In this document: in pieces, positions 29,498 through 53,319 of the stretch | How the letters are laid out: each line of letters starts with the position of its first letter | Numbering within the stretch: the first letter of the stretch is position 1 | NCBI RefSeq assembly: GCF_002081825.1 | Contig: NZ_MUKU01000021.1 | Location: forward strand, 1-64,000 | DNA: 64,000 nt | Reading direction: 5' to 3' | DNA from: Chromobacterium haemolyticum | GTDB lineage: Bacteria; Pseudomonadota; Gammaproteobacteria; Burkholderiales; Chromobacteriaceae | Notes under the pieces: generated by a model | What the model was told of the DNA's origin: nothing | Database searches by the model: none | What the model saw: the letters and a program-made list of their open reading frames with translations, nothing else | Position numbers and translations under genes: made by a program

Positions 29498-30277
29498 ATG
29501 CACCCCTCACCCTGGCTCCAGCGCCAGTCCGCCAGCCAGCCGCCGCGGCTGCGCCTGTATTGCTTTCCCTACGCCGGCGGCCACGCCGGCGCCTATGCCG
29601 GCTGGCAAAGCCGCCTGCCTCCTGAAGTGGAAGTCTGCGCCGCGCAACTGCCCGGCCGCGCCGCCCGTTTCCGCGAAGCCGGCTTCAAGGCGCTGCCGCC
29701 GCTGGTGGACGCGCTGGCGCGGGAGCTCCCGCTGGACGACGCCCCACCCTTCGTCTTCTTCGGCCACAGCATGGGCGGGCTGATCGCCTTCGAATTGACG
29801 CGGCTACTGCGCGCCCAAGGCCGGCCCCTGCCGCAGCGGCTGATCGTGTCCGGCTGCGACGCGCCGCAACACCGCCAGCCGCCGCGCATGCTGCACCGGA
29901 TGGACGACGACGGCTTCATCGACGCGCTGCGCGACTACAACGGCACGCCCGCGGAGATCCTGGCCCACCGGGAAATGATGGACCTGCTGCTGCCCACCCT
30001 GCGCACCGATTTCGAACTGGTGGAAACCTATCGCTACCAGCCGGCCCCGCCGCTCTCCCTGCCCATCACCGTGCTGGCCGGGCGCAACGACCGTCAACGC
30101 CTGCCGGAACAAACCGAAGGTTGGCAACGGGAAACCGCCGCACCCGCGCGCGTCCACTGGTTCGACGGCGACCACTTCTTCATCGCCAGCGCCCGGGACG
30201 CCGTGCTCGCCCGCCTTAACAGCGAACTCGCCGAGACGCTGTCCAGCCCTGCCGCCGCCATGCCGGACCTTGCCTAA
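29498..30277 (+). CDS. Type II thioesterase of NRPS locus
   Basis: 259 residues; the ATG at 29498 has AGGAGA upstream, 4 bases after the MFS stop. An alpha/beta hydrolase with YCFPYAGG near the N-terminus, nucleophile Ser in GHSMGG, a catalytic Asp candidate in AGRNDRQ and the catalytic His in GDHFFI. This is the standard TEII family (SrfAD, GrsT), which clears mis-primed or stalled carrier domains by hydrolysis in the cytoplasm. The last gene of the NRPS3-MFS-TEII unit; the next 550 bases contain repeats rather than genes, so it marks the right boundary of the locus. Confidence 0.94.
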   Translation: MHPSPWLQRQSASQPPRLRLYCFPYAGGHAGAYAGWQSRLPPEVEVCAAQLPGRAARFREAGFKALPPLVDALARELPLDDAPPFVFFGHSMGGLIAFELTRLLRAQGRPLPQRLIVSGCDAPQHRQPPRMLHRMDDDGFIDALRDYNGTPAEILAHREMMDLLLPTLRTDFELVETYRYQPAPPLSLPITVLAGRNDRQRLPEQTEGWQRETAAPARVHWFDGDHFFIASARDAVLARLNSELAETLSSPAAAMPDLA

Positions 30278-30280
30278 GAC

Positions 30281-30386
30281 CCGCTAATAAAACCCCTGAT
30301 CCTGCGTTGCGCCTCCTTGCCGTACTACTTGTACTGCCTGCGTCGGCGCGCCTTGGCTCAGGTTCTCTGCGAGGTTTTGTTAGCGG
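30281..30386. repeat. MITE-like element 1 (106 bp, terminal inverted repeats)
   Basis: Ends are CCGCTAATAAAACC (30281-30294) and GGTTTTGTTAGCGG (30373-30386), which match as inverted repeats at 13 of 14 positions. No coding potential. Begins 3 bases after the TEII stop codon. Only one copy is visible in this window. Confidence 0.7.
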
Positions 30387-30388
30387 CT

Positions 30389-30486
30389 CTAAGAACCTGC
30401 TTACGATCTGCTGCGCGTTGTGGAGCGTTACACGATGTGTTTGCCTTGTCTCGCTCTTGCGCGCGAGATCGTAAACAGACTCTAAG
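30389..30486. repeat. MITE-like element 2, copy A (98 bp)
   Basis: Ends CTAAGAACCTGCTTACGATCT and the inverse of the right end (TTTACGATCT shared) match at about 17 of 21 positions. It shares the stretches CTGCTGCGCGT and GCCTTGTCTCGC with the repeat at 38714-38872. It is a shorter relative of the elements after chuV and smc. Confidence 0.65.
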
Positions 30487-30833
30487 CCGCAGCCGCCCGA
30501 CGAAACGCCGGGCGCAAGCGCGCCCGGCCTCGCTGCGCCGCCATAGCGGACGCCCGCCCCTTGCCTCCCCGCTGCAAGCACGTGATAATCCGGCCGTGCT
30601 GTGCATCAGCACCGGGCTTGGCAGCTCGAATCAGTAAGGCGGACAGCCGCCGCACGCGGCATTTTTACGTCCGTTACACACCACAGGGTAAGTCTTACGC
30701 TAAGGCTGGCCGTGGTGGGGGCGTGCTTGCACGCGCCGGGTCCTTACTGCCGGTCTGCCAACCCTGCCACGCGCCTGTCTCCACGCTTGGCAGCGAAGGG
30801 GGCAGGTTTAATGCTCAGTAAGGAGTCATCGTC
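30487..30833 (+). other. GC-rich structured leader upstream of the 107-aa gene
   Basis: About 350 bases with no convincing gene. It contains several hairpins, including GCCGGGCGC/GCGCCCGGC near 30507-30527 and GCGTGC-TT-GCACGC at 30721-30734, and many G-rich and C-rich blocks able to pair. The two overlapping + strand ORFs across it lack ribosome sites and have shadow-like composition. It ends with AAGGAG at the start of the next gene. Looks like a conserved untranslated leader or a remnant of an integrated element; not identified. Confidence 0.4.
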
Positions 30834-31345: not shown

Positions 31346-31422
31346 GCACCCGTAGCTCAGTTGGATAGAGTATCTGGCTACGAACCAGAGGGTCGGGCGT
31401 TCGAATCGCTCCGGGTGCGCCA
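31346..31422 (+). tRNA. tRNA-Arg (ACG), copy 1
   Basis: 77 bases with encoded CCA. Acceptor arms GCACCCG and CGGGTGC, anticodon loop CTACGAA giving anticodon ACG, T loop TTCGAAT. Cloverleaf pairing is intact. First of four tRNAs. Confidence 0.95.
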
Positions 31423-31429
31423 CACTAGT

Positions 31430-31504
31430 GTCCCTATAGTTTAGCGGTTAGAACACCGCCCTTTCACGGCGGTAGCCGGGGTTCGATTCCCCGTGGGGAC
31501 GCCA
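31430..31504 (+). tRNA. tRNA-Glu (UUC), copy 1
   Basis: 75 bases with encoded CCA. Anticodon stem CCGCC/GGCGG with loop CTTTCAC gives anticodon TTC. T arm CGGGGTTCGATTCCCCG, acceptor GTCCCTA with TGGGGAC. Confidence 0.95.
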
Positions 31505-31507
31505 CTA

Positions 31508-31584
31508 GCACCCGTAGCTCAGTTGGATAGAGTATCTGGCTACGAACCAGAGGGTCGGGCGTTCGAATCGCTCCGGGTGCGCCA
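31508..31584 (+). tRNA. tRNA-Arg (ACG), copy 2
   Basis: Identical to the Arg tRNA at 31346-31422. It starts 3 bases after the first tRNA-Glu, so the Arg-Glu unit is a tandem duplication. Confidence 0.95.
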
Positions 31585-31592
31585 CAATTTAA

Positions 31593-31667
31593 GTCCCTAT
31601 AGTTTAGCGGTTAGAACACCGCCCTTTCACGGCGGTAGCCGGGGTTCGATTCCCCGTGGGGACGCCA
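31593..31667 (+). tRNA. tRNA-Glu (UUC), copy 2
   Basis: Identical to the Glu tRNA at 31430-31504. Last gene of the tRNA operon, 14 bases before the terminator stem. Confidence 0.95.
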
Positions 31668-36926: not shown

Positions 36927-37909
36927 GCGCGCTGACCCTGGACGCCGCCGCGCCCAATCGCGGCCGCTGGCTGTTGCTGGGCCTGATCGCCGCCAGCCTG
37001 CTGTTGCCCTTGCTGGCCTTGTCCAGCGGCGGCAACGGCCTGGCCTGGCCGGACTTCAGCGATCCGCTGCTGACCCAGCTGCGGCTGCCGCGCATCGCCG
37101 CGGCGCTGGGCGTGGGCGCGGCGCTGGCCGCCAGCGGCGCGGCCTTGCAGGCCTTGTTCCGCAACCCGCTGGCCGATCCCGGCCTGATCGGCACCTCCAG
37201 CGGCGCGGCGTTGGCGGTGGTCGGCATGCTGGCCGTCGGCGCCGCCGGCCTGTCCTTGCCGCTGGCCGCCTTTGGCGGCGGCCTGCTGGCCACCTGGCTG
37301 ATCCTGTTGCTGTCGCGGCTGGTGCGCGGCGGCCTGGCCGGTCTGCTGTTGATGGGCTTGGTGGTGGGCGCCTTCTGCGGCGCGGTCACCAGCCTGATGA
37401 TTTTCATGTCCGACGACCTGACCCTGCGCGCCGCCACCAGCTGGCTGGCCGGCAATCTGTCCTCCGCTTCGTCGGAACGGCTGCTGGCCTGCCTGGGCGT
37501 GGCCGGCCTGGGCTTGCTGATCCTGATCGCGGTGGGCCGCGATCTGGACTGCCTGTTGCTGGGCGAGGATGCCGCCCAATCCCTTGGCATAGACGTGCGC
37601 CGCACCCGCCGGCTCACCGCGGTCGGCGCGGCGCTGGCCACCGGCGGCGCGGTGGCGCTGTCCGGGGTGATCGGCTTCGTCGGCATGATGATTCCCAATG
37701 CGCTGGCGCTGCTGATGGGCGGCTGCCGCCGCCGGCTGATCCTGCTGTCGGCTTGGGCCGGGGCCTTGTTCCTGCTGGCGGTGGACACCCTGGCGCGCAC
37801 CGTCGCCTGGCCCATCGATCTGCCTGTGGGCCTGATGGCGGCATTCGCCGGGCCGCCGTTCTTCGTATGGCTGTTCCGGCGACAACAAAGGAGTCTGATC
37901 AATGGCTGA
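36923..37909 (+). CDS. chuU: Heme ABC transporter permease (HmuU type)
   Basis: 328 residues from a GTG at 36923 overlapping the chuT stop. FecCD/BtuC family: about ten hydrophobic segments, the LRLPRIAAALGVGAALAASG block, QALFRNPLADPGLIGTSSGA, and the conserved GVIGFVGMMIPN near the cytoplasmic coupling loop. Inner membrane; works as a dimer with ChuV. Overlaps chuV by 8 bases. Confidence 0.94.
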   Translation: MSALTLDAAAPNRGRWLLLGLIAASLLLPLLALSSGGNGLAWPDFSDPLLTQLRLPRIAAALGVGAALAASGAALQALFRNPLADPGLIGTSSGAALAVVGMLAVGAAGLSLPLAAFGGGLLATWLILLLSRLVRGGLAGLLLMGLVVGAFCGAVTSLMIFMSDDLTLRAATSWLAGNLSSASSERLLACLGVAGLGLLILIAVGRDLDCLLLGEDAAQSLGIDVRRTRRLTAVGAALATGGAVALSGVIGFVGMMIPNALALLMGGCRRRLILLSAWAGALFLLAVDTLARTVAWPIDLPVGLMAAFAGPPFFVWLFRRQQRSLING

Positions 37910-38717
37910 AACCACAACCCTGTGCGTGCGCCAGTTGGCCTGCGATATCGGCGGCAAGCGGATTCTGGACGACATCAACCTGGACTTGCCCACCGGCCGG
38001 GTCAGCGCGCTGCTGGGCCCCAACGGCGCCGGCAAAACCACGCTGATGCGGCTGCTGGCCGGTTTGAACACGCCCAGCGCCGGCGCGGTGCGTCTGGCCG
38101 GCCAGTGCGTCGGCCGCATGGAACCGGCGGTGCGCGCCCGCCGCATCGCCTGGGTGCCGCAGCACATCCCCTCCGGCATTCCGTTGACGGTGCGCGAGTT
38201 CGTGATGCTGGGACGCGTGCCCTACCTCGGCGCCTTCTCTCGCCCGCGGGTTGAGGACAAAAGCGCGGTGGCGGACGCGCTGGGCACGGTGGAGCTGGAC
38301 GATTACGCCGACCAGCGGCTGGATCAGTTGTCCGGCGGCGAACGCCAGCGCGCGGCCATCGCCCGCGCCTTGGCGCAGCAAGCGCCGGTGCTGCTGCTGG
38401 ACGAGCCCACCAATCACCTGGACCTGCGCCACCAGCACCGCTTGCAACAACTGCTGCTGGAATTGTCGCGCCAGGGCCGCACCGTGGTGCAGGTCTTGCA
38501 CGACCTGGCGCTGGCGGCCAGCTACGCGGATCACGTGGCCTTGCTGGAACAGGGCCGGCTGGTGGTGGCCGGCGCGCCGGAACAGGTGCTAACGCCGGAG
38601 CGCCTGCTGGCGGTCTACCGCTGGCCGGTGCGTTTGCAGCGCAACGGCAACGACTGGCAGGTCAATGCAGCCCTGGCGCAGGCGCAGAAGCCCGCGGCGC
38701 TGGCGTCCGGGGCCTGA
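37902..38717 (+). CDS. chuV: Heme ABC transporter ATP-binding protein (HmuV type)
   Basis: 271 residues. Walker A LGPNGAGKTT, Q-loop region, signature LSGGERQRAAIARAL, Walker B VLLLDEPTNHLDL and switch His in LHDLALA. The HmuV group ATPase energises ChuU. The last gene of the heme operon. Its stop TGA falls inside the left boundary (CTGAGAG) of a 159-bp repeat, followed by an intrinsic terminator at 38889. Confidence 0.95.
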   Translation: MAETTTLCVRQLACDIGGKRILDDINLDLPTGRVSALLGPNGAGKTTLMRLLAGLNTPSAGAVRLAGQCVGRMEPAVRARRIAWVPQHIPSGIPLTVREFVMLGRVPYLGAFSRPRVEDKSAVADALGTVELDDYADQRLDQLSGGERQRAAIARALAQQAPVLLLDEPTNHLDLRHQHRLQQLLLELSRQGRTVVQVLHDLALAASYADHVALLEQGRLVVAGAPEQVLTPERLLAVYRWPVRLQRNGNDWQVNAALAQAQKPAALASGA

Positions 38718-38872
38718 GAGCCTGTTCATAGCCTGCTGCGCGTCGGCGGGATGGATAGGTAAAGGGCGTTGAAACTAGCTTCGAAATGCTCATGTACCGT
38801 ATGACCATTCCGCTTTCTCAGCTGCAACGCCTTGTCTCGCCCTAGCTCGCGAGGCTTTGAACAGACTCTGAG
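38714..38872. repeat. MITE-like element 2, copy B (159 bp)
   Basis: Starts CTGAGAGCCTGTTCA and ends TGAACAGACTCTGAG; the ends match as inverted repeats at about 18 of 21 positions. It shares GGGATGGAT, AAAGGGCGTTGAAAC, GCTTCGAAATGCTCATGT, CATTCCGCTT and CGCCTTGTCTCG with the inverted copy at 48979-49140. The chuV stop codon lies within its first bases. Confidence 0.85.
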
Positions 38873-38888: not shown

Positions 38889-38926
38889 AAAAACCCCCGG
38901 CTTGCTTGCGCGAGCCGGGGGTTTTT
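38889..38926. terminator. Bidirectional terminator between chuV and hpt
   Basis: ACCCCCGGCT and AGCCGGGGGT arms flanked by an A5 run on the left and a T5 run on the right, so it can end both the rightward heme operon and the leftward hpt gene. Confidence 0.9.
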
Positions 38927-48978: not shown

Positions 48979-49140
48979 CTGACGAAAACAGTTTGCGGAA
49001 AGCTAAAACTAGACGAGACAAGGCGAAAACGGCTGAGGAAGCGGAATGATCAACTGGCACATGAGCATTTCGAAGCCGGTTTCAACGCCCTTTCTCCATC
49101 CATCCCGCTGACACACAGCAGACTTTAAACAGGCTCTCAG
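48979..49140. repeat. MITE-like element 2, copy C (about 162 bp, inverted)
   Basis: Read on the - strand it starts CTGAGAGCCTGTTTAAAG at 49140 and shares with copy B the blocks GGGATGGAT, AAAGGGCGTTGAAAC, GCTTCGAAATGCTCATGT, CATTCCGCTT and CGCCTTGTCTCG. The far end (near 48979) is degenerate. The smc stop codon lies inside its first bases, as the chuV stop does in copy B. Confidence 0.85.
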
Positions 49141-52100
49141 GCGGTTTCCCGCATTTTCAACGCTTCCACGATGTCCACCGCCACAATGCGGCTGACGCCC
49201 TGCTCCTGCATGGTCACGCCCACCAGTTGTTCGGCCATTTCCATGGTCAGGCGGTTATGGGAAATATAGAGAAACTGGGTTCGCTCCGACATCTGTTTGA
49301 CCAGATCGCAGAAACGGCTGGTATTGGCGTCGTCCAGCGGCGCGTCCACCTCGTCCAGCAGGCAGAACGGCGCCGGGTTCAGCGAGAACAGCGAGAACAC
49401 CAGGCTCATCGCCGTCAACGCCTTTTCCCCGCCGGACAGCAGGTGAATCGTGCTGTTCTTCTTGCCCGGCGGTTGGGCGATGATTTGTACGCCGGCGTCC
49501 AGCAGGTCCTCCCCGGTCAGCACCAGTTCGGCGCGGCCGCCGCCAAACAGCGTGGGGAAAAACTCGCGCATCTTGGTGTTGACCGCATCGTAAGTGGCTT
49601 GCAGCATCTCGCGGGTTTCGCCGTCTATCTTGGCGATCGCCTCTTCCAAGGTGGCCATCGCCTGATTCAGGTCTTCGGACTGGTTGGCCAGATAGTCGCC
49701 GCGCTTTCTGGCTTCATCCAGTTCCTCCAGAGCCGCCAGGTTGACCGCGCCCAGCCCTTCCAACGCGCGCGCCAGCCGGGCAATCTCGGCCGCCAGCGCG
49801 TTCGGCTTCACCGCCTCGCTCAGATCGGCCATCAGCGCGGCTTCGTCGGCGCCGGCGCTGGCCAGCTCTTCGGCGAAACGCTCCATCGCCAGCCGCGCTT
49901 CCTGGTGCTTGAGCAGCCAGTCCGAACGCGCTTCGCGCAGCGCCGGCAAGGCGGCGTTGGCTTGCTGTTGTTGATGAGTCAATTCGCGCAGCTTCTCGGT
50001 CAGGCCGTTGAGCCGGTCGCGCACCGCGCCCAGGCTGTGCTCGCGTTGTTCGCGTTCGGCCAGGGCCAGCTGCAAGGCCTCCTCCGGCACCGCTTCCTCC
50101 ACTGCCTCGGCTTCCTCGGCCAGAGTCTCCAAGCGCTCGGCCAGTTGCTGATCGCGCTCGTCCAGCTCGCGGCCCCGCCGCGCCAGCTCCGCCACCTTCT
50201 GCTCGGCGGTGCTCATTTCCAGCTTGATCTCATGCAGCATGCGCTCGGCGTCGCGGGTCTTGTTGCGCGCCAGTTGCAAACCGGTCTCGGCGTTGAGCCG
50301 ATCCACGCGCATGTCTTCCAACTGCACCGTCAGCTCTTCCAGCGTCAGCGCCGTCTCCTCGCCCAGCATTTCCGCCTCGGCGATGCTCTGGCGGGCCAGT
50401 TCGCCCTCGTCGGCGATGCGCCGGCGCTCGGCCTCGATCGCCGACAGCCGCGCCGCGCCCTGGCGCGCGGCCTGGTCCAGCTTGACGTGCTCCAGGGTTG
50501 CCGCGTTCAGTTCCGCCTCCAAGCGGGTCAGCGCGCCCTTTTGCGCCCGCACCGCCTCGGCCAGCATGCCGCCGCGGCTTTGCAATGATTCGCGACGCCG
50601 CTGCAAGGCGTCGATTTCCGGCAACAAGGTCTCCAAGCGCGACTGGGCCGCTTCCAGCAGCGCCTTGCGCGCCATCAGGCCGTCGCCGCCGGCTTCGGCG
50701 TGCAGGCACAGGCTGGCGGCGTAAACGCGGTGGCCTTCCGGCGTCAGCAGGCAAGCGCCGGCCGGCAATTGTTCGCGCAAGGCCAGCGCCTCATCCAACG
50801 ATCCGGCCAGGTAGACGCCGGCCAACCAGTCCTGCAAGGCGGCCTGGAAGGGTTGGGCGGCTCGCACCTGTTGCAACAGCGTCGGCCACGAACGCTCCGC
50901 TTCCCAATCCCGCACTGTCGCGCCGTCCGCCAGCGCCAGCGCCGCCGGCGGCAATTCGCCGGACAACGCGGCGGCGCGCGCGGCCAGGCGCTCGCCCAGC
51001 GCCGCTTCCAGCGCCGCTTGCCATTTAGGCTCCACCTGCAGGCTCTGCCACAACTGCGGCGCCTCGGCCAGGCCCCGGCGCTGCAGCCAGCCGTCCAATT
51101 GCTCGCTGGCCGCCTCGCGCGCCAGCATCCCGGCCAGCGCGGCGGCTTCGGCTTCGGCGCGCGCCTGCTCACCGCGCAGCGCGGCCAGTTGCTCGTCCAG
51201 TTTTTCGCGCTCGGCGGCCAGGTCAGCCTGCTTGGCCTCGTCGGCCACCAGCCGGCCTCGCACCGTCTCCAGCGCGCCGCGCGCGCGTGCCACTTCGGCG
51301 GCGGCGGCTTGCTGCCGCTCTTGGTCCGGCAAATTCAAATCGCTCAGTTCGCGGCGCAAAGCGTCTTCGCGGCCGGACAGCTGCTCCAGATTGCGACGCT
51401 GATGCTCGCCGTTCTGGCGCGCCAGGTCCCGATCCCGGCTGAGCTTGGCCTGCTGCGCGGTCAGCCCGTTCAACTGCTGTTCGATGGCGCGGTATTCCGC
51501 CTCGGCGGTGGGCAGTTCGTCGGCGCCGTCCTCCAGCGTCATCTGCGCCTCTTCCAGCCGCATCTGCGCTTCTTCCCGCCGCGGCAGCCAATCGTCCAGT
51601 TCGGCCTTCACCTGGCCGCGGCTTTCGGCCAGCACCTGGCGCTCGGTGCGCACGGCGCCCAGTTCGCGGTCGACGCGGGCGCGGTTCTGCTCGCGATGGC
51701 GCTGAGCCTCTTCCAGCCGCGCCAGTTGGGCGTTGGCCTCGAACAAGCGCTGCTGCGCCTCGTGCACTTCGTCGCTGGCGGCGAAATGGCTTTCGCGCAC
51801 GGTTTCGGATTCGGCCTCCACATGGGTGACCGCCGCTTCCAGCGCCGCTTCTTCGGTTTCAATGCGCGCCAGTTCCCCGCGCGCCGCCGCCTCGTTGCGC
51901 GCGGCCTCTTCGCGTCGCGCCAGAGCCAACAGGTTTTGCTTATGGGTCAGCGCGCCGCGCAGATCGTGGTATTGGGCCGCCACCTCCGCCTGTTCGGACA
52001 AGCGCTCCACCTGCCGTTCCAGCTCTTGCCGCAAGTCCGCGATGCGCTCCAGGTTGGCGCGGGTGTCCGCGATGCGGTGTTCAGTCTCGCGGCGGCGCTC

Positions 52101-52622
52101 CTTGTACTTGGACACGCCGGCGGCTTCTTCCAGATAGGCGCGCAGTTCTTCCGGGCGCGCCTCGATAATCCGGGAGATCATGCCCTGCTCGATCACCGCG
52201 TAGCCGCGCGCGCCCACGCCGGTGCCGAGGAAAAGATCCGTGATGTCGCGGCGACGCACTTGCTGGTTGTTGATGAAGTAGCTGGATTCGCCCTGGCGGG
52301 TCAGCACCCGCTTGATCGCCACTTCCGCGTACTGGCCCCAGGCGCCTGTGAGCGCGCCGTCGCCGTTGTCGAATACCAGTTCCACCGAGGCGCGGCTGAC
52401 CGGCTTGCGCGTGGACGAACCGTTGAAGATCACGTCCTGCATCGATTCGCCTCGCAGTTGCTTGGCCGAGGACTCGCCCAGCACCCAGCGCACCGCGTCT
52501 ATCACATTGGACTTACCGCAGCCATTGGGGCCGATCACCGCCACCAGTTGACCGGGCACGGCAATGCTGGTGGGATCGACGAATGACTTGAAACCGGCAA
52601 GCTTGATGTGGGTGAGACGCAA
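49137..52622 (-). CDS. smc: Chromosome segregation ATPase SMC
   Basis: 1161 residues from a TTG start at 52622. The TTG is chosen because GAGGA lies 5 bases upstream and the protein then begins LRLTHIKLAGFKSF, as SMC proteins do; a 52-residue upstream extension is not SMC-like. Walker A GPNGCGKSN, two long coiled coils (about 170-500 and 670-1000), a hinge near residues 500-650 (QLDGWLQRRGLAEAPQ), C-terminal signature LLSGGEKALT and Walker B FCLLDEVDAPLDDANT. Forms the ring that organises and segregates the nucleoid with ScpAB. Normal length. Confidence 0.97.
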   Translation of the reverse strand: MRLTHIKLAGFKSFVDPTSIAVPGQLVAVIGPNGCGKSNVIDAVRWVLGESSAKQLRGESMQDVIFNGSSTRKPVSRASVELVFDNGDGALTGAWGQYAEVAIKRVLTRQGESSYFINNQQVRRRDITDLFLGTGVGARGYAVIEQGMISRIIEARPEELRAYLEEAAGVSKYKERRRETEHRIADTRANLERIADLRQELERQVERLSEQAEVAAQYHDLRGALTHKQNLLALARREEAARNEAAARGELARIETEEAALEAAVTHVEAESETVRESHFAASDEVHEAQQRLFEANAQLARLEEAQRHREQNRARVDRELGAVRTERQVLAESRGQVKAELDDWLPRREEAQMRLEEAQMTLEDGADELPTAEAEYRAIEQQLNGLTAQQAKLSRDRDLARQNGEHQRRNLEQLSGREDALRRELSDLNLPDQERQQAAAAEVARARGALETVRGRLVADEAKQADLAAEREKLDEQLAALRGEQARAEAEAAALAGMLAREAASEQLDGWLQRRGLAEAPQLWQSLQVEPKWQAALEAALGERLAARAAALSGELPPAALALADGATVRDWEAERSWPTLLQQVRAAQPFQAALQDWLAGVYLAGSLDEALALREQLPAGACLLTPEGHRVYAASLCLHAEAGGDGLMARKALLEAAQSRLETLLPEIDALQRRRESLQSRGGMLAEAVRAQKGALTRLEAELNAATLEHVKLDQAARQGAARLSAIEAERRRIADEGELARQSIAEAEMLGEETALTLEELTVQLEDMRVDRLNAETGLQLARNKTRDAERMLHEIKLEMSTAEQKVAELARRGRELDERDQQLAERLETLAEEAEAVEEAVPEEALQLALAEREQREHSLGAVRDRLNGLTEKLRELTHQQQQANAALPALREARSDWLLKHQEARLAMERFAEELASAGADEAALMADLSEAVKPNALAAEIARLARALEGLGAVNLAALEELDEARKRGDYLANQSEDLNQAMATLEEAIAKIDGETREMLQATYDAVNTKMREFFPTLFGGGRAELVLTGEDLLDAGVQIIAQPPGKKNSTIHLLSGGEKALTAMSLVFSLFSLNPAPFCLLDEVDAPLDDANTSRFCDLVKQMSERTQFLYISHNRLTMEMAEQLVGVTMQEQGVSRIVAVDIVEALKMRETA

Positions 52623-52755
52623 GATGTCCTCGCAATGGCTGGGCGAAAATCGGCATTTTAGCAGTTGCCCGCGCCAGGCGCGCGTCGCGCGCGGACCTGT
52701 TGCGCGTCGCGCAGCCGCATCTACCCAGGCAGCCCACTTATGCCATAATGGCCGC

Positions 52756-53319
52756 ATGGAACCGCTATCGTTGTCCAATCAATTCTTGATCGCCATGCCC
52801 AATATGGCGGACCCGCTGTTCTCTCGCTCGCTGGTCTTCGTCTGCGAGCACGGCGAGCACGGTGCCATGGGCCTGATCATCAACAAGCCTTCCGGCATCG
52901 CCATGGCGCAGTTGTTCGATCAGATCGATCTGCCGCTGGACGGCGACTCGCTCCGTGCCGAGCCGGTCTACTTCGGCGGCCCGGTGCAGCCGGACCGGGG
53001 CTTCGTGCTGCACATGCCGGTGGGCAATTGGCAGTCCAGCCTGCTGGTCACCGACGACATCGCGCTGACCACGTCCAAGGACGTGCTGATGGCGGTGTCC
53101 GAAAACCACAAGCAGCCGGACCGCATGCTGATCACTCTGGGCTACTCCGGCTGGAGCGCCGGTCAGCTGGAACAGGAGATCGCCGACAACGGCTGGCTGA
53201 CGGTGCCTGCTCGGCCTGACATCATCTTCGGCCTGCCTTGCGAGGAGCGCTACGACGCCGCCATGGCTCTGCTGGGCTTCGACCCCTCCCTATTGTCCAC
53301 GGATGTCGGCCATGCCTGA
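52756..53319 (+). CDS. yqgE: YqgE/AlgH family protein (UPF0301)
   Basis: 187 residues from the ATG at 52756. Family landmarks: [48 protein letters not shown], and [15 protein letters not shown]. Cytoplasmic; function not settled in any species. Overlaps ruvX by 17 bases, the usual yqgE-yqgF pairing. Divergent from smc. Confidence 0.95.

Follow-up and report, generated by a model that had tools for sequence, protein, structure and literature searches.

The dispersed repeat that lies beside the stop codons of a chuV-like gene and of smc in the window (the whole stretch of 64,000 nucleotides of Chromobacterium haemolyticum DNA that was analysed) is a MITE, that is, a non-autonomous transposon, mostly 140–152 bp long and with ends like those of an IS1031-type element of the IS5 family, and gene stop codons are its commonest landing place among the sites examined. 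With a probability that we put at roughly 0.88, the MITE is mobilised in trans by IS1031-type (IS5-family) transposases that target C-TNA-G and duplicate the TNA, and its insertions within genes are lost. Judging from its length, 140–152 bp being too short, the MITE presumably carries no transposase gene.

Three places in the window were found by profile, and all three begin on a stop codon. Copy 1 of the family, termed family A (38718..38868, + strand, 151 bp; profile match E 4.9e-43), is in sense orientation relative to the chuV-like gene (ORF 37902-38717), whose product is an ABC ATPase (PF00005) and which adjoins a FecCD permease gene. The TGA stop of this gene (38715..38717, +) is the left copy of a 3-bp target duplication, the identical right copy being found at 38869..38871 (+), and the layout reads GGCC-TGA, GAGCCTGTTC ... 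GAACAGACTC, TGA-GACC, with imperfect inverted ends. Together with its flanking triplets, copy 1 folds into one long hairpin (-63 kcal/mol, z -3.5). Copy 2 (49012..49136, − strand; profile match 49137-49012, E 6.5e-28) is likewise sense relative to smc (ORF 49137-52778, minus strand, with an SMC domain), the TGA stop of which (49137..49139, −) forms the gene-side copy of the duplication; its far end is decayed, and no far inverted end was found at up to 3 mismatches. The inverted arms, 38712-38822 and 49032-49142, were 85% complementary across 111 nt. The first-pass annotation had placed shared blocks at 38714-38872 and, inverted, at 48979-49140; both copies are real, but the similarity of the second ends at about 49012 rather than at 48979. 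It had also held that the end of the repeat carries the TGA of both genes. The repeat does abut both stops, but the TGA is the duplicated target and not part of the repeat, since the triplet varies, is duplicated, and is present as a stop without the element in the G001 ortholog of chuV.

The relative of about 100 bp that had been reported at 30389 was recovered as a 90-bp third copy of family A (30393..30482, +; partial profile match 30436-30486, E 1.6e-8), flanked by TAA at 30390-30392 and at 30483-30485. It constitutes the second unit of an array, the first unit being a 112-bp MITE-like element of another family, family B (30278..30389, +; ends GACCCGCTAATAAAACC / GGTTTTGTTAGCGGCTC), with TAA on both sides, of which the left one is the stop (30275..30277, +) of a thioesterase gene (ORF 29498-30277; Thioesterase PF00975). 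This family-B unit folds as a strong hairpin (z -5.7 for 30278-30392). Family B also occurs elsewhere (L098, L099, L313, L323 and others) as units of about 112 bp with ends GAGCCGCTAACAAAACC and TNA flanks; the fetched stretches contain 17 copies, of which 12 have identical flanks on both sides, 3 are on a stop codon and 8 lie beside a family-A-like end.

The repeat is not a chance likeness, since Blast with copy 1, for which 40 of 333 candidates were scored, yielded at least 45 matches at E<=0.001 in the window's own genome, and a 19-base core allowing up to 3 mismatches matched there 240 times, compared to 4 times for the reversed pattern. The corresponding core matches in G012, a single contig, were 219 and 3. 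Among 19 genomes of the genus, with at most 40 candidates scored in each, G000, G001, G004, G005 and G012 gave at least 41–46 matches each, seven gave 1–7 and seven gave none. A named genome collection, from which the own genome was possibly left out, contained exact matches to 45 bases spanning end and body in 41 stretches, all of them from Chromobacterium: C. alkanivorans, C. aquaticum, C. haemolyticum and, in one case, C. vaccinii. No Rfam family was detected on the repeat copies at the gathering score.

The ends and flanks of the element were assessed in five genomes (own, G012, G001, G004 and G005). Copies from the own genome and from G012 were collected by an exact or one-mismatch core from the first 100 places listed, out of 240 in the own genome and 219 in G012, and those from G001, G004 and G005 by similarity to copy 1, with 20 places each. 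Of these 303 copies, 224 had both ends within 2 mismatches of GARCCTGTTYA, and the others, lacking one or both ends, were dropped. Leaving out array partners, as well as sites less than 200 bp from the end of a stretch, reduced the 224 copies to 210 unique sites. The most frequent lengths were 140 bp (78/171) and 143 bp (33/171). A TNA triplet was present on the left at 193 and on the right at 171 of the 210 sites, and the two triplets were identical at 137, a number that is lower than the main reading would lead one to expect. The own-genome stretches contained 118 copies, of which 82 had both ends; among these 82, the left TNA was seen at 77 sites, C at position -1 at 61 and G at +1 at 53, while the triplets agreed at 47. 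Insertions away from stops displayed the same CTNAG preference. With G as the first base of the element and C as its last, TNA, CTNA and CTNAG would all be valid ways of noting the duplication; we adopted TNA since the C and the G are missing at many sites and since TNA is the reported target and duplication of the IS1031 group (PMC12016507).

For the analysis of placement, the elements were excised in silico, genes were called by our own codon-model script rather than taken from annotation, and a site was scored as a stop if either flanking triplet was a stop codon. Exactly on a stop were 110 of the 210 sites (105 with strict gene calls, giving an odds ratio of 12.3 compared to non-coding TNA sites), with 49 located within 100 bp downstream, 39 further away and 12 inside genes; the random placement relative to stops that would have spoken against the first-pass annotation was thus not seen. 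By genome, stops accounted for 42/78 sites in the own genome, 26/49 and 10/18 in two batches from G012, 11/20 in G001, 9/24 in G005 and 12/21 in G004. TAG was found at 0 of the 110 stop sites, as the TNA rule predicts, and it makes up 36 of the 406 stops called in the own-genome stretches. The target preference for stop codons proposed earlier therefore holds as a description of where copies lie, but the target itself is (C)TNA(G) and not the stop as such.

Control TNA sites (n=29,964) comprised 744 stop, 1,785 near, 4,748 far and 22,687 intragenic positions. From the available TNA, stops would be expected to make up 11.4% of non-coding sites, compared to the 56% observed (110/195). Weighting by the motif derived from the 76 non-stop insertions raised the expectation to 26.2%, and with the comparison confined to sites no more than 100 bp downstream it was 52.2%, against 110/158 observed (p 1e-5). 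Restricting the comparison to CTNAG sites under a one-flank classification gave, for stop versus near sites, p 0.046 (own genome) and 0.23 (G012), and for stop versus far sites 3e-6 and 0.14, respectively. Much of the placement at stops follows from the C-TNA-G motif together with the elimination of copies that had inserted into genes or promoters. What is left, once motif and position are allowed for, is an approximately two-fold excess at stops, and either targeting or selection could be its cause; that the motif-weighted expectations fall short of the observed values counts against the main reading.

According to the main reading, an IS1031-type transposase would act on the MITE in trans, cutting a short near-palindromic target, preferably C-TNA-G, and the TNA would be copied to both sides of the insertion. 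A transposon that duplicates TNA will always be able to insert into a stop codon and restore it, because all four TNA words are stops on one strand (TAA, TGA, or TTA and TCA read backwards). Insertion into a stop would thereby leave the protein unchanged and, C-stop-G being common at gene ends while insertions inside genes would be lost, gene ends would become the main reservoir of copies. Resident ends (GGTTC-TNA-GAACC) would in turn offer new targets, giving rise to arrays in which neighbours share one TNA.

A matching autonomous partner was found. In the own genome, ten near-identical right ends of an IS (98–100%) are located at contig ends, reading ...AGATCGTGAACAGGCTC followed by TNA, nine left ends encode the start of OrfA with 73–81% identity to the OrfA of L295 over the part present, and a degenerate full-length copy occurs at L111. 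The L295 element, from G005 (L295:1509-2358, 850 bp, ends GAGCCTGTTCAAAGTCT / GAACCTGTTCAAAGTCT), has TTA on both sides and carries the second end type of the MITEs (GTTCAAAGTCT). Its OrfA contains DUF4096 (PF13340; 5e-22) and matches part of the IS5 model NF033580 below the cut-off of that model, and its OrfB, located in a different frame, contains DDE_Tnp_1 (PF01609; 7.3e-32) and matches NF033580 above the cut-off (3e-43). This element fits the IS1031 subgroup of the IS5 family as described for ISLrh, which is reported to be 857 bp long with 17-bp ends GAACCTGTCTAGTATCT and two overlapping ORFs with a frameshift, and to insert at TNA, TGA in its own case (PMC12016507). The Chromobacterium IS resembles the subgroup in its length of about 850 bp, its 17-bp ends starting GAACCTGT, its two ORFs in different frames and its 3-bp TNA duplication, as far as these features are given in the same source (PMC12016507). 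Unlike ISLrh, it is a separate element outnumbered by MITEs, about half of the examined sites of which are on stops. Neither in G012 nor in G001 was a close match to the IS end of the own genome found at 1e-25, even though G012 has its 219 core matches, and this counts against the main reading.

Many own-genome contigs (L118-L128, L142, L145-L154) end inside the IS; the element breaks the assembly, and its copy number and both flanks are therefore unreadable there. Among the 19 IS flanks visible in the own genome (10 right ends and 9 left), 12 abut MITE-end-like sequence with at most 1 mismatch, and another two flanks, both of right ends, coincide directly with the stop of a gene; the flanks on the stop of the flanking gene number four (L132, L134, L136 and L142). 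By a rough estimate, MITE ends represent at most about one fifth of the C-TNA-G sites outside coding sequence. Since 12 of 19 flanks stand against at most about one fifth of sites, the IS looks like it targets sequence resembling its own ends, in a set of few cases with one side of each IS end visible.

A symmetric TNA target predicts no bias in orientation, contrary to what was seen. At stops, 74 elements were sense and 26 antisense when orthologs were counted once (p 1.7e-6), and at sites 1–100 bp downstream of stops the proportions were reversed, with 14 sense and 32 antisense (p 0.011). The second batch alone lacked significance, at 15:7 at stops (p 0.13) and 3:3 at near sites. Several causes of the bias were tried and rejected: membership in arrays, as isolated copies at stops among the first 171 sites were still 41:19 sense versus antisense; the identity of the left TNA, as non-stop sites lacked a preference for TRA on the left; and the arrangement of the next gene, as tandem and convergent pairs were equally biased. 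The GC content of the flanks favoured no consistent side. The opposite biases, together with the residual excess at stops and the four IS flanks on stops, may indicate that the transposase, or a coupling of it to transcription or translation, truly prefers the 3' ends of genes and senses their direction. Near sites moreover carried TRA on the gene strand in a ratio of 34:14, compared to 900:885 in controls, and some of these may be former stops. Against such a preference, the CTNAG motif is also present at non-stop insertions, the comparison of stop and near sites restricted to CTNAG is the marginal one given above, the second orientation batch alone is without significance, and every copy seen has already passed selection. 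We consider a true 3'-end preference improbable, while still giving it some weight.

Orthologous genes provide the empty sites that bear on the age of the stops. Among 18 chuV orthologs with flank, the element directly follows the stop in four (G000, G004, G005 and G012), and no profile match was obtained in the other 14; one of these, in the close relative G001, shows a single stop directly adjoined by a terminator-like hairpin, which is the empty site that had been sought in relatives. Five of 19 genomes are filled at smc, G011 has a shorter relative and thirteen are without a profile match. The position of the stop is common to the genomes without the element, and the stop therefore predates the insertion. 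The shorter relative in G011 (L188) is a diverged MITE with similar ends at the smc stop, in a genome with one family-A match only. In G008, G017 and G018 (L185, L186 and L183, respectively), a stretch like GATCGTGGACAGGCGC, without a profile match, lies 3' of smc and by eye could be a decayed element end.

Ten pairs of copies at orthologous stops were compared, and in every pair the orientation agreed. Three of the pairs had distal flanks at least 0.88 alike while the elements were only 0.74–0.84 alike, no closer than random pairs of elements (0.80, sd 0.07). One pair, with elements at 0.97 and identical flanks, is plain shared descent; three had unlike distal flanks (0.40–0.52), and in the other three the elements were 0.87–0.91 alike. 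The chuV copies of four species were 0.67–0.89 alike and the smc copies of five species 0.58–0.74, three of the latter being cut at 125 bp with the far end absent. At the chuV stop of G004 (L163), the element carries at its left end a tandem repetition of the eight bases TGAGAGCC, possibly a trace of slippage or of a second insertion.

Of 30 neighbouring pairs in arrays, which include many decayed units with uncertain ends, 27 had a 3-base spacer and 27 the same orientation, the latter also being true of all 13 pairs that were 0.70 or more identical; a single orthologous pair, with a 7-base gap, accounts for two of the 30. Recent tandem duplication was rejected as a general origin of the arrays, as the identity between neighbours ranges from 0.44 to 0.94, with poorly bounded decayed units among the low values and two pairs at 0.94. 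From the differences between copies at orthologous stops, it seems that some copies have been exchanged while the site stayed the same, either through gene conversion or through tandem insertion followed by deletion. A more elaborate scheme, which we regard as distinctly unlikely, would make stops a safe harbour: a complex would recognise gene 3' ends via C-TRA-G and an asymmetric cue (transcription, perhaps, or ribosomes at termination), insert the element in sense orientation and renew the resident copy by repeated head-to-tail insertion and deletion, with the result that sister species would keep the site and the orientation, not the copy.

Even less probable is a role of the repeat as an mRNA 3' end, either as a terminator or as a stabilising hairpin, through which it would be held at stops. 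The long hairpin of copy 1, the two-fold excess and the sense bias at stops would all agree with such a role, but the hairpin is without a U run and the element closes in GARCC-type inverted repeats followed by TNA; of the features of an intrinsic terminator, only the GC-rich hairpin was thus found, in copy 1. At sense stops it is the element strand that is read, and this strand forms the less stable fold (mean -52.2 versus -58.1 for the complement, with the element strand being the more stable one in 28/171), and sense placement therefore brings no better hairpin. Sites 1–100 bp downstream, which should be equally suitable for a 3' hairpin, are biased in the opposite direction. Finally, chuV retains just beyond the element a GC-rich terminator-like hairpin, recognised by eye between A and T runs (38889..38926) and also present at the empty site of G001, and the 3'-end function that the first-pass annotation had offered as its second option is accordingly not supported.

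GTAG-type REP sequences have a fixed end motif and are not known to undergo target duplication, whereas the stop at the Chromobacterium MITE is a duplicated host triplet, and never TAG at the 110 stop sites. Although stop-supplying repeats are already known from such REPs, which are reported to give a TAG stop to flanking ORFs (PMC3733652), and although the element is palindromic and mostly extragenic, an ordinary REP-type extragenic palindrome whose fixed end motif happens to contain TGA or TAA can practically be dismissed, as the flanking triplet varies as TNA and recurs at the other end, a sister species has a single-stop empty site, and instead of the palindrome of 20–40 bp with a GTAG end described for these REPs we found elements of mostly 140–152 bp with IS5-family-like ends (GARCC...GGYTC).

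Transposition by an IS1031-type transposase is the preferred reading, and here other MITEs offer points of comparison. The Tourist-like MITEs belong to PIF/Harbinger, with a transposase akin to that of IS5, eukaryotic hosts and a TWA target. Neisseria, which belongs to the same order, Neisseriales, has the Correia elements, which insert at TA and have other end sequences than the Chromobacterium MITE. The PIF/Harbinger superfamily is reported to have 3-bp target duplications as well (PMC12730594). The Correia elements, or NEMIS, are likewise described as short hairpin-forming MITEs with high copy numbers, and placement at stop codons is not mentioned in the passages that describe them (PMC2229807, PMC10969869). 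QMITE2 of Coxiella burnetii is reported mainly from 3' untranslated regions (PMC10969869), but is tied to GTAG palindromes and IS1111, with no TNA duplication of a stop in the description given there. Among the matches listed in our literature searches, there was no report of this element from Chromobacterium and none of IS1031 MITEs at stop codons, and the main text of a 2024 review of prokaryotic MITEs contains 0 occurrences of 'stop codon' and 0 of 'Chromobacterium'. With about half of the examined sites at gene ends and the stop preserved, the rebuilding of stops by TNA duplication provides a simple rule, open to testing, by which IS1031-type MITEs could become numerous in genomes that are dense and GC-rich.

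The surroundings of the repeat array at the thioesterase gene gave some further observations. Upstream, positions 99-28169 of the window hold very long ORFs with repeated segments, followed by the thioesterase, and apparently represent a non-ribosomal peptide cluster. A C4 antisense RNA (Rfam RF01695, 60.5 bits), a phage-type immunity RNA, is located at 30698-30785, 3' of the array and 5' of tRNA genes, and may be a trace of a prophage or satellite. The tRNA genes, four at 31346-31664, form two pairs with pairwise identical scores, which suggests a recent duplication.
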